Source: an uncultured Prevotellaceae bacterium (GTDB lineage: Bacteria > Bacteroidota > Bacteroidia > Bacteroidales > UBA3663). From it: a stretch of DNA of 64,000 nt. How positions within the stretch are numbered: position 1 is the stretch's first letter; the number at the start of each line of letters is the position of its first letter. Position numbers and translations under genes: made by a program. The stretch spans positions 150,517 through 214,516 of the forward strand of contig ONNR01000002.1 in NCBI GenBank assembly GCA_900319235.1, read 5' to 3'. Shown here piece after piece: positions 4,728 to 8,946 of this stretch. The notes beneath the pieces were generated by a model. The model had not been told where the DNA came from. It searched no databases and was given only the letters and a program-made list of their open reading frames with translations.

Positions 4728-6731
4728 TTATTTGATTCTTTCGATTCTGATGCCAGCTCCCCCGCTGCGTGCCAGTCTTAGAGTCAGCGTGGATTGGCAG
4801 GTGACCTCCTGCTGTCGGATGGTCATCTCGTAGGGATTGCGCTCGAAGTCGGCTGTGGGACCATCCTCGTAGATGACGGCGCGGTAGGTGGCACCCTCAT
4901 CCAGGAAGTCGAGTTGTAGGTCCAGGATGCGTGCCTCCTCGTTGGTGATGCTGCCCACCCACCAGTTGTCGCCACCGCGCTCCTTGCGTGCCACGGTCAC
5001 GTACTTGCCGATTTCTCCATGGGGCACAAGGGTCTTGCTCCACGTGGTCGGACAACTCTCGATGAACGTCAGTGCAGGTTGTCCCTCGTAGTTCTCGATG
5101 GCATCGGCTGCCATCTGCAGGGGGCTGTAGATCACTACGAACTCGCCCAGTTGCTTGGCAAGGGTGGAGTGGGGGTGAGTGCCAGGGACGACTTCCGAGA
5201 AGTTGAAGATGGCTGGTGTAAAATCAGTAGGTCCTGCCAGGCAGCGGGTGAAGGGCAAGGTCACGGTATGTGCAGGAGGATTGCCGCCTTTCACGTCCCA
5301 GGCATTGTATTCCTGTCCGCGCACGCCTTCCTGCGTCATCAGGTTGGGCAAGGTGCGTTGCAGGCCTGTCGGCATGGCAGGCTCATGGTTGTCGATCATG
5401 ATGTGATGCTTGGCTGCTGTCTCGATCACCTTGCGGTAGTGGCGGATGCCGTACTGCGACTTGGCGAGTTCCTTGCCGTCGAAGTAGTGGCCCACATATC
5501 CTGTTTTCACCGCGCGGATGCCCAGCCTGCTGAACCATGCAAAGGCTTCGTCCATCTGTTCCTCGAGCAGGCGGGTGTTGCCCCAGGTCTCGGTGTGGCC
5601 GATGAAGCGCACGCCCTTCGTAAGGGCATAGCTGCAGACCTCCTCGATGTCGAAGTCGGGATACGACTTCAGGTAACTGATCTGTTCGCCTTCGCCCCAT
5701 CCGGGGTTCCATCCTTCGGCCAGCACGCCGCTGAATCCGTGTCGTGCAGCGAAGTCGATGTAGCGCTTCACGTTCTCGGTGGTGGCTCCGTGCGTCGGTC
5801 CCATTTCCCAGGTGTTCTGCTTCTTGTGGATGCTCCACCAGATGCCGAGGTAACGGCCGGGCTCTATCCACGAGGTGTCTTCCCACAGGCAGGGTTCGTT
5901 GAGGTTGAGCATCAGGCGCGAAGTCATCAGGTCGCCCGGCGTTTTGCCGATGATGATGGTGCGCCACGGGGTGCGTGTCTCGTCCTGGCAATACACCTTC
6001 ACGCCGTTCTGCCAAGGGGTCAGGGCTGTGAGCAGGCGTACGCTGCCATCATTCCCCGTTCGTGGTGTCAGGTTGATGCTTGCATAATCGACGAGGGCAG
6101 CCTCGTGGAGGGCCAGCACCAGCGAATCCTCATATTCGATGGTCAGGGGAGTGCACACCGTGTCCTTGCGGCTCAGCAGGTCGGCCTCGTAGATGCCCTC
6201 GAAGTATTCCGTGCGGTTGCTGGGTATCGACCATGCCTTGGCATCGTGAGCCAGGGTGATCTCGGTCAGTTCGTCCATGATCTGGTATTGTTCTCCCGGC
6301 TTTGTTCCAGGCAGGATGTAGCGGAAGCCCACTCCGTCGTCAAACACGCGGAACACTACCGTCATCATCCTTTTCTGTCCCGTGCGCTCCTTGAAGTTCA
6401 CGGTCAGTTCGTTGTAGCGGTTCACCACGGTCTTGTCCTCGCCCCAAAGCTGCGTCCACGTCTCGTCGGTCGAGGCAGTCCTGCTGCCCTTCATCTCGAC
6501 GCGTTCGCCCAACTGTCCGTCGTTGAGCACGAAGCCAAGGTGCGAAGGAAGCACGAGATCCTTCGAACCATAGGTCACCTGGTAGTAGGGTTTCTCGGAG
6601 GCCACCCCGACGGAGACCTTGATTGCTCCGTCGGGTGAGGTCACCGATACACACTTTGCATTTACACCTGCAAAGTGACTACATACACACATTATTAAAC
6701 AAAAACCAAAAAAAGAAAAATGATTGCGCAT
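4728..6731 (-). CDS. Glycoside hydrolase family 97, probable inverting alpha-glucosidase (SusB-like)
   Basis: This 667-residue secreted protein has an N-terminal signal peptide followed by the GH97 beta-sandwich start (SPDGAIKVSVGV), a TIM barrel and a C-terminal sandwich. In the barrel the text VKTGYVG (about residue 410), DNHEP (about 445) and QEGVRGQEY (about 468) follows the SusB pattern: glycine where retaining GH97 alpha-galactosidases carry the nucleophile aspartate, and glutamates in the inverting-base positions. That points to a calcium-dependent inverting alpha-glucosidase acting on imported malto-oligosaccharides in the periplasm. It is the first gene of an operon with susC and susD, and a clear promoter lies upstream at 6801-6832. 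The substrate is inferred; the family call is firm. Confidence 0.9.
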   Translation of the reverse strand: MRNHFSFFGFCLIMCVCSHFAGVNAKCVSVTSPDGAIKVSVGVASEKPYYQVTYGSKDLVLPSHLGFVLNDGQLGERVEMKGSRTASTDETWTQLWGEDKTVVNRYNELTVNFKERTGQKRMMTVVFRVFDDGVGFRYILPGTKPGEQYQIMDELTEITLAHDAKAWSIPSNRTEYFEGIYEADLLSRKDTVCTPLTIEYEDSLVLALHEAALVDYASINLTPRTGNDGSVRLLTALTPWQNGVKVYCQDETRTPWRTIIIGKTPGDLMTSRLMLNLNEPCLWEDTSWIEPGRYLGIWWSIHKKQNTWEMGPTHGATTENVKRYIDFAARHGFSGVLAEGWNPGWGEGEQISYLKSYPDFDIEEVCSYALTKGVRFIGHTETWGNTRLLEEQMDEAFAWFSRLGIRAVKTGYVGHYFDGKELAKSQYGIRHYRKVIETAAKHHIMIDNHEPAMPTGLQRTLPNLMTQEGVRGQEYNAWDVKGGNPPAHTVTLPFTRCLAGPTDFTPAIFNFSEVVPGTHPHSTLAKQLGEFVVIYSPLQMAADAIENYEGQPALTFIESCPTTWSKTLVPHGEIGKYVTVARKERGGDNWWVGSITNEEARILDLQLDFLDEGATYRAVIYEDGPTADFERNPYEMTIRQQEVTCQSTLTLRLARSGGAGIRIERIK

Positions 6732-6800
6732 ATAGTTTTAGTAATACATGTTCGTTCAAAAAATAGTGTTTTCACAAGCCGTTGGTTGTGCTTTCCGGTG

Positions 6801-6832
6801 CAAAGATATGGGCTTTTCGAATAACCTCCAAA
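6801..6832 (-). promoter_or_regulatory. Promoter of the GH97-SusC-SusD operon
   Basis: Read on the minus strand, a TTTG -33 element (6829-6832) is followed by 20 nt and TATCTTTG (6801-6808), the Bacteroidetes primary-sigma consensus. The -33 element is extended to TTTGGAGG. The start codon lies about 70 nt downstream. Confidence 0.85.
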
Positions 6833-6959: not shown

Positions 6960-6991
6960 TTTGGAGGATAATAATTAATTCCTTATCTTTG
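6960..6991 (+). promoter_or_regulatory. Promoter of the SusR-like regulator
   Basis: TTTG (6960-6963), 20 nt, then TATCTTTG (6984-6991). It also starts TTTGGAGG, like the divergent GH97 promoter 130 bp away. Transcription should start near 6998, leaving a leader of about 300 nt before the ATG at 7297. The inverted repeat 7003-7241 fills most of that leader. Confidence 0.85.
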
Positions 6992-7002
6992 CGGTGACCA
7001 AG

Positions 7003-7241
7003 TTTGAGAAAATGACAGACAACCTCGGCCCAATGGCCTGGTTGTTTCTGCCGGAAAAAGAGCAGGTCCAATACCTGCAGAAAATTGCACTTCGTGCAGA
7101 AAATAGGTGGGTCCAATGCTTGGTCACTTCATCGACCCTCATTATTTTCTGCATAGCAATTTTCTGCTGCCATTGAGGCAGCACATTTTCCGGCAGCAGA
7201 GACAGGGCATTGAGCCCGCAGTCTCCTGCCATTTTCTCAAG
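7003..7241. repeat. Long imperfect inverted repeat with coding-like arms
   Basis: Arm 1 (7003-7088) and the reverse complement of arm 2 (7156-7241) align over 86 nt without a gap, with 59 matches by my count. Similarity continues inward to about 7115 and 7129 after one 3-nt indel. In phase, the arms encode related peptides: FEKM...LPE...QKIA on the plus strand and LEKM...LPE...QKIA on the minus strand. The element lies inside the predicted leader of the SusR-like gene and could fold into one large hairpin. Confidence 0.85.
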
Positions 7242-7296
7242 AATATCAATGATAACATCGCCGTTGTATAGAAGCAAAACCAATCCATCAATCCCC

Positions 7297-8946
7297 ATGA
7301 AACCAATCTCCCTGATCACCCTCCTCCTCCTTCCCCTTGCCTGCGCCTACGCCGCCACCCCCACCAACCAGCAGCTCTACCAGACCCTCGACAGTCTGAT
7401 AGAGCATCAGCAGGACATCATCGCGCAGAAGGAGGCGCACATCAGCCACATCCACGAAGGCATCCACGGCCTTGCGCTCACCCCCGAACAGGAGTACACC
7501 TATAATATGCGCCTGTACGACGAGTACCTGGCCTTCAATTTCGACTCTGCCTATTACTACATCGACCGCAATCTCCACCTCCCTCGTCATCCCGGCGACT
7601 ATCAGCATTTCGCCCTCAGTGCCATCCGCATGGCACACATTCTCGCCGTCAGCGGACTCTTCGACCACGCCTATTCCCAGCTCTCGAAGGTTTGCGCCGA
7701 CAGTCTGACCGATCCCTTGCGTGTCGAATATTACAATCAGTGGAGCGAGATCTTCCTCTATCGTTCCGAGATGGAGCAGTTCACGCCCTTCTCTGGCCAG
7801 GACACCGACAGTGCCCAGTACTATCGCCAGCTGGTTATGCAGATAGCTCCCAAGGAATCGTTCGACTACGTCTCCTGCCTCGCCAACTACACCTGTGAGA
7901 AGGGCGATGTCGAACTGGCCATTGAGATGTACGAACGCTACCTCCCTTCGCTCCAGCAGGGCACACGCAACTACAGCATCGTGGCAAGCACACTTGCCTA
8001 TTTCTATTCGCGCACGCGACAGCAAGAACAGCAGGAGCACTATCTGCTGCTCAGCGCCATCAGCGACCTGCGTGGAGCCATCCTCGAGAACAACTCCTTC
8101 CGCGAACTCTCGTCCATCCTGCTCGAACGCAACGATGCCCGTCGTGCCTACGCCTACCTCGTCCACGCCAGTAGCGATGCCCGTCGTTATGGCAGTCGCC
8201 TCCGTAGCATGCAGGCAGCCCAGTTGTCACCGCTCATTCTCAAGACCTACGACCTGGAACGCACGCAGTCGCAGCGTCGCATCTCCATCCTGCTCATCAT
8301 CGTCTCCATCATCGCTCTTCTGCTCGTCGCCACCATCGCCTTCATCCTGGTGCTCCTGCGCAAGCGCCACCTTTATACCCAGGCTGTACGAAACGCCTCC
8401 GCGCAGATTCGTGTCATGAACAAGGAACTGGCCCAGCGAAACGCCGAGGTCGAGCGCATCAACCAGGAGATGAAGGAGAGCATCCGCATCAAGGACGAAT
8501 ACATCGGCCGATTCCTCGAACTATGCAGCACCCTCATCCGTCGTGGCGAGGACCGTGCCCGTCAGCTCTATCGCCTCTCGCGCGAAAGGAACGTCACCGA
8601 ACTATATGCACAATTAAAGAGCCAGACGCTCATCAACGATGGCTATCGGCTCTTTCACCAGAATTTCGATACGGCATTTCTCAACATCTTCCCCAACTTC
8701 ATCAGCGAAGTCAATCGCCTGATGATTCCCGGCAACGAGTTCGAAGTGGGTGACGATGGCGCACGCCTCACCACCGAGCTTCGCGTCCTTGCCCTCCTGC
8801 GCCTCGGCATCACCGACAACCAGAAGATTGCCGACATCCTCCGCTCCAGCATCACCACCATCTACACCTATCGTTCCAAAATCAAGTCCCGCGCCATCGA
8901 CAAGGATTCCTTCGAGGACCGGATTCGCTCCATCTCAACCTACTGA
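7297..8946 (+). CDS. SusR-like membrane-spanning transcriptional regulator (DUF6377 type)
   Basis: The ATG at 7297 is chosen because a signal peptide (MKPISLITLLLLPLACAYA) begins there; the frame is open further upstream but without such a start. The 549-residue protein has a TPR-like helical periplasmic region (about 20-325), one membrane helix (about 326-350, ISILLIIVSIIALLLV), a coiled-coil stretch and a C-terminal LuxR-like helix-turn-helix (about 496-530, ITDNQKIADILRSSITTIYTYRSKIK). This layout is that of SusR, which senses maltose-type sugars and activates sus genes. Its divergent position next to GH97-SusC-SusD supports the role. A hairpin at 8948-8988 follows the stop codon. Confidence 0.88.
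   Translation: MKPISLITLLLLPLACAYAATPTNQQLYQTLDSLIEHQQDIIAQKEAHISHIHEGIHGLALTPEQEYTYNMRLYDEYLAFNFDSAYYYIDRNLHLPRHPGDYQHFALSAIRMAHILAVSGLFDHAYSQLSKVCADSLTDPLRVEYYNQWSEIFLYRSEMEQFTPFSGQDTDSAQYYRQLVMQIAPKESFDYVSCLANYTCEKGDVELAIEMYERYLPSLQQGTRNYSIVASTLAYFYSRTRQQEQQEHYLLLSAISDLRGAILENNSFRELSSILLERNDARRAYAYLVHASSDARRYGSRLRSMQAAQLSPLILKTYDLERTQSQRRISILLIIVSIIALLLVATIAFILVLLRKRHLYTQAVRNASAQIRVMNKELAQRNAEVERINQEMKESIRIKDEYIGRFLELCSTLIRRGEDRARQLYRLSRERNVTELYAQLKSQTLINDGYRLFHQNFDTAFLNIFPNFISEVNRLMIPGNEFEVGDDGARLTTELRVLALLRLGITDNQKIADILRSSITTIYTYRSKIKSRAIDKDSFEDRIRSISTY

Follow-up and report, generated by a model that had tools for sequence, protein, structure and literature searches.

The window examined here is a stretch of 64,000 nucleotides from the genome of an uncultured Prevotellaceae bacterium, in which an imperfect inverted pair (7003-7241) stands ahead of a gene for a DUF6377 protein. 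The element that contains the pair is very probably a decayed copy of a non-autonomous derivative of an IS110 insertion sequence (IS), similar to miniature inverted-repeat transposable elements (MITEs); a recombinase directed to the sigma-ABfr promoter by its bridge RNA would have moved it in trans, and it would now form a folded 5' leader. According to the mechanism that we propose, an element of about 280 bp, derived from an IS110 insertion sequence and composed of a short left end, a 235-bp symmetrical hairpin ladder and a short right end, would be recognized in trans by an IS110 recombinase whose bridge RNA carries a target guide reading T(A)TTTGCAG. It would be inserted at the AG just past the -7 box of the housekeeping promoter of the DUF6377 gene, and the captured promoter would then drive the element, adding to the host gene a folded 5' leader of about 280 nt. 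The arguments come from sequence comparison and concern a repeat family with covarying stems, its empty and filled sites with an AG core and a placement at the -7 box, IS110 relatives with the same ends and sites, and the matches of their guides; the mobilization in trans, the transcription of the leader and the operation of a TTTGCAG guide within this genus are what we infer from them.

The repeat family and its insertion sites

The inverted pair is real and far beyond chance. The arms at 7003-7088 and 7156-7241 match as reverse complements at 59 of 86 positions, exactly as a first-pass annotation of this DNA had stated, while in 40 mononucleotide shuffles of the 259-bp stretch no more than 39 positions matched; folding of the stretch compared with that of dinucleotide shuffles yielded z = -8.8 for RNA and -10.1 for DNA, with no shuffle as good. 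What had been missed is that the genome contains many copies of the pair and that each arm consists of three small hairpins in a row (A, B and C). The arms had been interpreted as two divergent copies of a small coding sequence placed head to head and conserved in codon phase. Both arms of the window are indeed open from ATG and give related peptides, and 35 of 54 arms of the family are open as well; however, the mismatches between the two arms are distributed 7/11/9 over codon positions 1/2/3, which is no third-position excess of the kind that synonymous-biased change would leave, the arm lengths are spread over all three phases, the ATG frame is interrupted by a stop in 19 of the 54 arms, and unrelated A-hairpin modules interchange. 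Conservation in the arms follows stem pairing, not codons, and we regard the coding interpretation as almost certainly wrong.

A search of the window's own genome with the 259 bp retrieved eight near-full copies as well as partial ones, and among 119 related genomes copies were found only in five further species of the genus, besides one 27-nt match in another family. The covariance model built on the alignment of 54 distinct arms counted 22 arms in the own genome; the five sister species had 2, 28, 30, 65, and 35, and the remaining nine genomes of the genus had none. In an order-wide sample, arms were absent from the 293 genomes other than that of the window and that of the sister species G003. 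No copy was found in phage contigs by one exact-pattern scan. The element is short, multi-copy and has no transposase gene. We considered single arms as the borders of composite cargo and rejected this: the genes between arms at L105 and L111 are ordinary genes lying between separate copies, and only at L106 was there a transposase between arms, and the element carrying it has in turn inserted into hairpin C of a copy. The copies of genome G011 (L112, L111, L117, L156) have long centers, and open-frame repeats encoding PLYKVPNKG... flank an ATPase gene beside one of them. A second repeat of about 65 nt (AGATTGATGCTTTGCAGCAATCAAGGGAAGGGGCCCCATTCATGGGGACGGCCTTAGCCG), similar to repetitive extragenic palindromic (REP) sequences, is nested in hairpins of the copies at L102 (hairpin A), L020, and L035/L157.

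We joined the flanks of 12 filled sites and looked for them in the remaining 14 genomes of the genus; three sites were compared closely with their empty counterparts in sister species. The best pair consists of the filled locus L107 of G004 and the empty locus L164 of G007, which are 99% identical over 360 bp: the empty site reads TTTTTGCAGCGTTTTTC and the filled one TTTTTGCAG|CATCCATTTCG...TTATATAGA|AGCGTTTTTC. Two more distant relatives of the L107 locus are also empty, hence the insertion happened in G004. Consistently repeated across the three filled and empty sites is the dinucleotide AG only, with no longer target duplication, and the insertion point is this shared AG directly after the -7 box (TAnnTTTGC|AG). 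The sigma-ABfr consensus has TAnnTTTG at -7 and TTTG at -33 (PMC7366714). Among 41 distinct contexts with the promoter-type left end, counted from alignments, exact TAnnTTTG occurs not farther than 18 nt upstream of the left end in 30 (34 if one mismatch is allowed), against a background of 0.5% for the exact motif in 20-nt windows, and TTG at the -33 spacing is also present in 25 contexts. Past the right end, the start codon of an open reading frame of at least 60 amino acids follows within 160 nt in 17 of 19 cases, compared with 51% of random positions. Since recognition is directional and the -7 box stays intact, each insertion should be transcribed from the captured promoter. Head-to-tail junctions (TATAGAAGCG|NCCATTTCG), observed at L120, L151, and L113, would also be explained by repeated insertion at one site. 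The outermost ends, CGNCCATTTCG and TTATATAGA, are not inverted repeats of each other, the symmetry being confined to the internal ladder; due to this absence of terminal inverted repeats we call the element MITE-like and not a MITE in the strict definition.

IS110 relatives and their bridge RNAs

In G004 (JAFYZW010000073.1, a Bacteroidales metagenome-assembled genome, MAG, from water-buffalo omasum), an element with an IS110-family transposase is inserted in hairpin C of one copy of the repeat (locus L106). Its gene matches PF01548 with 79.2 bits and PF02371 with 31.6 bits, that is, both the DEDD and the Transposase_20 domains are above the cut-off. The left end of this IS110, TCCCATTGCCATTTGGCAAAC, matches the own-genome repeat copies L101, L097, and L095 (alignment scores 53, 58, and 40, respectively), and its right end is TTTGTTATATAGA|AG. 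The left-end blocks and the right end TTATATAGA|AG are common to the repeat and the IS110s L106/L200, L206, L207, and L226; the left ends of the last three are like those of the promoter-type repeats, with scores of 39-46 vs. 24 for the 99th percentile of random DNA. Seven IS110s are located at TTTGC|AG of -7-like boxes, namely L206, L207, L226, and the Prevotella elements L203, L204, L205, and L219, and both IS110 copies of Prevotella lacticifex are at -7 boxes. At the four Prevotella loci (Prevotella lacticifex and Prevotella MAG RUG318), the IS110 stands exactly after the -7-like box with its gene co-directional, so that the captured host promoter could drive the transposase. No Rfam family was matched at three IS110 loci.

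These common features bear on two other explanations of the repeat. It could be an unrelated structured element that merely shares an insertion hot spot with IS110, for which the ladder, having no counterpart in the IS110 elements seen, may be adduced; but the right end TTATATAGA|AG, the left-end blocks and the core dinucleotide are all common with IS110, and an IS110 with the same ends was found in a sister species, which makes such a coincidence highly improbable. It could also be a palindromic repeat of the REP type or of the type of bacterial interspersed mosaic elements (BIMEs), mobilized by a REP-associated Y1 tyrosine transposase (RAYT). Intergenic hairpins that occur in many copies and as inverted pairs do resemble BIMEs, and a small REP-like repeat is nested in some copies. 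Nevertheless, the Y1 transposase (PF01797) was not found in the own genome (G000) and three carriers (G003, G004, and G006), all of them incomplete genomes, the presence of Y1 genes is not correlated with that of the repeat, no RAYT gene flanked by these hairpins was seen, and the ends and sites are of the IS110 type. We rejected the RAYT origin on the grounds of the missing transposase and the IS110-type ends, and judge it extremely unlikely.

As for the guides, 27 relatives were collected from genome contigs, and the 18 with a readable left end were analyzed. Upstream of each IS110 gene lies a predicted two-loop RNA, in which 17 of 19 consensus pairs covary. In all 18 IS110s, 7 nt or more of its first loop, AG among them, are identical to the element's own target; the sum of the target-guide matches is 115, compared with a mean of 68 and a maximum of 95 after permutation (p about 3e-4), and the best target match falls at the same RNA position in 17 of 18. 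The second loop carries a donor guide, TATAGAAG, matching the right end by 8-9 nt, and in L215, L216, and L218 the donor guide is altered together with the right end of the element. Such a two-loop RNA with target and donor guides corresponds to the bridge-RNA arrangement of IS110 (PMC11208160). The target guide of L206, L207, and L226, the clade closest to the repeat, is TATTTGCAG, i.e., the -7 box, and that of the Prevotella elements L203, L204, L205, and L219 is AATTTGCAG. Guides of the TATTTGCAG/AATTTGCAG type match the target of the repeat; they were not found in the own genome or in the genus. The IS110 of G004 (L106:5944-7852) has a target guide, AATGCGTAG, that matches its own insertion site, TTTTGCGTAG, inside hairpin C of the repeat copy; the only IS110 found in the genus is therefore an IS aimed at its presumed passenger. 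Mobilization in trans has been experimentally established for IS110-family donors devoid of their own RNA or transposase (PMC11208160; PMC11187229).

The copy in the window and its hairpin ladder

The window copy retains the layout of the family (-33 element, -7 box, core, right end, core AG, and start codon), although most of its left end is deleted. The promoter of the downstream gene, of the sigma-ABfr type, lies on the forward strand at 6960-6991, with TTTG of the -33 element at 6960-6963 and the -7 box TATCTTTG at 6984-6991; it was read from the sequence by the published consensus (PMC7366714), is placed relative to the element as in the above 30 of 41 contexts, and its -7 box is the presumable insertion target. 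The left core dinucleotide, at the junction of the target and the left end (6993-6994, forward), is GG here and AG in the family, as follows from the empty and filled sister copies. The left-end remnant (TGACCA...; 6995-7004, forward) lacks about 45 nt in comparison with intact left ends. The left arm (7005-7104, forward; model R1, 103.1 bits, supported by covariation) comprises a spacer (7005-7013), hairpin A1 (7014-7050), the spacer CCGGAAAAA (7051-7059), hairpin B1 (7060-7078), a spacer (7079-7087), hairpin C (7088-7098), and a spacer (7099-7104). The variable center (7105-7143, forward), usually 30-240 nt long in other copies, separates it from the right arm (7144-7239, reverse strand; model R1, 93.6 bits), which comprises a spacer (7144-7149), hairpin C' (7150-7156), a spacer (7157-7165), hairpin B2 (7166-7184), a spacer (7185-7193), hairpin A2 (7194-7230), and a spacer (7231-7239). 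The right end (7240-7272, forward) closes with TTGTATAGA at 7264-7272, the family form of which, TTATATAGA, is identical to IS110 right ends; after the right core dinucleotide AG (7273-7274, forward) the target DNA continues from 7275. The element is inside the 5' leader of the open reading frame 7297-8946 (forward; start codon at 7297), whose product belongs to DUF6377 (PF19904, E=3.3e-65). Thus, of the "leader of a SusR-like regulator" described in the first-pass annotation, the leader placement holds, and the gene itself is assigned by Pfam to DUF6377. We agree that transcription from 6960-6991 would pass through the element, judging by the promoter consensus. A second -7-like box (GCAAAGATATG, reverse complement CATATCTTTGC) is present on the reverse strand at 6798-6815 and faces the divergent gene 4728-6731, so the element adjoins a putative divergent promoter pair.

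In every arm, hairpins A (about 37 nt), B (about 19 nt) and C follow one another in this order, with a spacer before, between and after them, and the spacers contain GAAAAT or a close variant. The hairpin types are interchangeable, their unrelated stems having a common CAAT-type loop, and unrelated A hairpins substitute for each other at the same place. Across the arms, 183 cells are changed on both sides of a pair and still paired, vs. 57 expected (covariation score 0.323 vs. 0.133, 0 of 500 shuffles as high). Within one element, the spacers of one arm are 94-98% complementary to those of the other. In none of 34 elements are hairpins A or B of the same type in both arms, while about 8 would be expected by random pairing; if only distinct pairings are counted, hairpins A and hairpins B each show 7 of 15 possible ones, none homotypic, with an estimated chance probability of about 0.02 for each. 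It looks as if long perfect palindromes were avoided. The predicted fold of the element is a ladder of four-way junctions, and we know of no described element with this design. In G007 the promoter-side arms begin with AAAGGAGGTGAAAATGG, a Shine-Dalgarno-like stretch followed by ATG, which is unusual for Bacteroidales, whereas the opposite arm does not have it; this start might be a short upstream open reading frame.

Single hairpins do not differ in stability between the sense and antisense strands (Wilcoxon p=0.71), and whole elements are more stable in antisense in 32 of 36 cases, on average by about 4 kcal/mol; we do not, therefore, claim that the structure was selected as leader RNA. The same data bear on the proposal that the pair is a cis-acting regulatory leader, i.e., a riboswitch-like or attenuator-like long hairpin that evolved to control the downstream regulator. 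The position between promoter and start codon, the strong fold and the many copies located in leaders speak for it. However, besides the lack of sense-strand preference, the same element precedes many unrelated genes and occurs outside leaders as well, its gain at the 99% identical locus is recent, in the sister species G003 the ortholog of the DUF6377 gene is preceded by a short native leader that lacks the element, and no Rfam covariance model matched the window at the gathering threshold. We find such an origin very unlikely, and the dedicated regulatory hairpin envisaged in the first-pass annotation gives way to the other possibility named there, a remnant of a mobile element in the leader, to which the repeat family and the IS110-type ends and sites point. 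As to the ladder itself, our preferred guess is a passenger structure that has persisted because its folding is local and tolerable within 5' leaders. Less probably, though conceivably, selection has acted on the ladder as a nucleic-acid architecture. It would then be a series of four-way junctions that requires different modules in each arm and is recognized by the IS110 recombinase or a host factor, perhaps keeping the captured genes expressed, and its joints would be the short GAAAAT/ATTTTC helices between the hairpin pairs.

Strength of the proposed IS110 origin and comparison with known systems

Several observations weigh against the IS110-derived origin. The own-genome copies L093, L095, L097, and L101 are away from promoters, the ends of many G011 copies could not be assigned, and the window copy is devoid of most of the left end and has GG instead of AG as its left core. 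The promoter-type left end resembles that of L206, L207, and L226 but is not identical to it, and the ladder arms are not a part of the IS110 elements seen. The window's own genome (86.5% complete) has no IS110 gene above the Pfam cut-off, and the only IS110 gene among the 15 genomes of the genus has the guide TGCGTAG, not TTTGCAG, so that the guide used in the genus is deduced from relatives. Most genomes considered here are incomplete drafts, and multi-copy IS are often lost from such assemblies.

If the IS110-derived origin is correct, the repeat would be a naturally occurring example of a bridge-RNA system directed at a core promoter element, with RNA-guided recombination systematically rewiring 5' leaders genome-wide. 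It suggests that IS110 elements have natural passengers moved in trans, offers testable predictions on guide reprogramming, given that the repeat itself is the target of one IS110 copy, and may yield a short donor with its target, both natural, for use in Bacteroidota. In a literature search that did not extend to subscription papers or preprints, neither natural non-autonomous IS110 elements nor promoter-aimed bridge RNAs turned up.

The closest known system is IS621/IS110 (Durrant et al. 2024, PMC11208160), with which the proposed one shares a parent with a DEDD/Transposase_20 recombinase, a guide RNA with target and donor loops in the upstream non-coding end, and a core dinucleotide (AG, which is CT on the other strand) with no longer duplication. 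Unlike IS621, the window element has no recombinase or bridge RNA, and the repeat inserts at the -7 box of the housekeeping promoter of Bacteroidota, while IS621 targets REP elements. In the seekRNA system of IS1111/IS110 (PMC11187229), laboratory mini-IS with ends of about 50 bp are mobile if transposase and RNA are supplied in trans, as is proposed here; in contrast to those constructs, the repeat would be a natural family of mini-elements, and one with a hairpin ladder. Inverted pairs of small intergenic hairpins also make it similar to the REP/BIME palindromes with RAYT, but no RAYT was found in the own genome, and the ends and the insertion chemistry differ. Like the bacterial MITEs reviewed in PMC10969869, e.g., Correia and the BrickBuilt elements of Porphyromonas, the repeat is short, multi-copy, transposase-free, intergenic and folded, and one Correia copy is also located just downstream of a promoter; classic MITEs, unlike the repeat, have terminal inverted repeats and usually target duplications, and the term IS110 is absent from the text of this 2024 review of prokaryotic MITEs. 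Finally, in Coxiella an IS1111-type element targets the MITE QMITE2 (PMC10969869), much as the IS110 of G004 targets hairpin C, with the difference that here the targeted repeat itself seems to descend from the same IS family.
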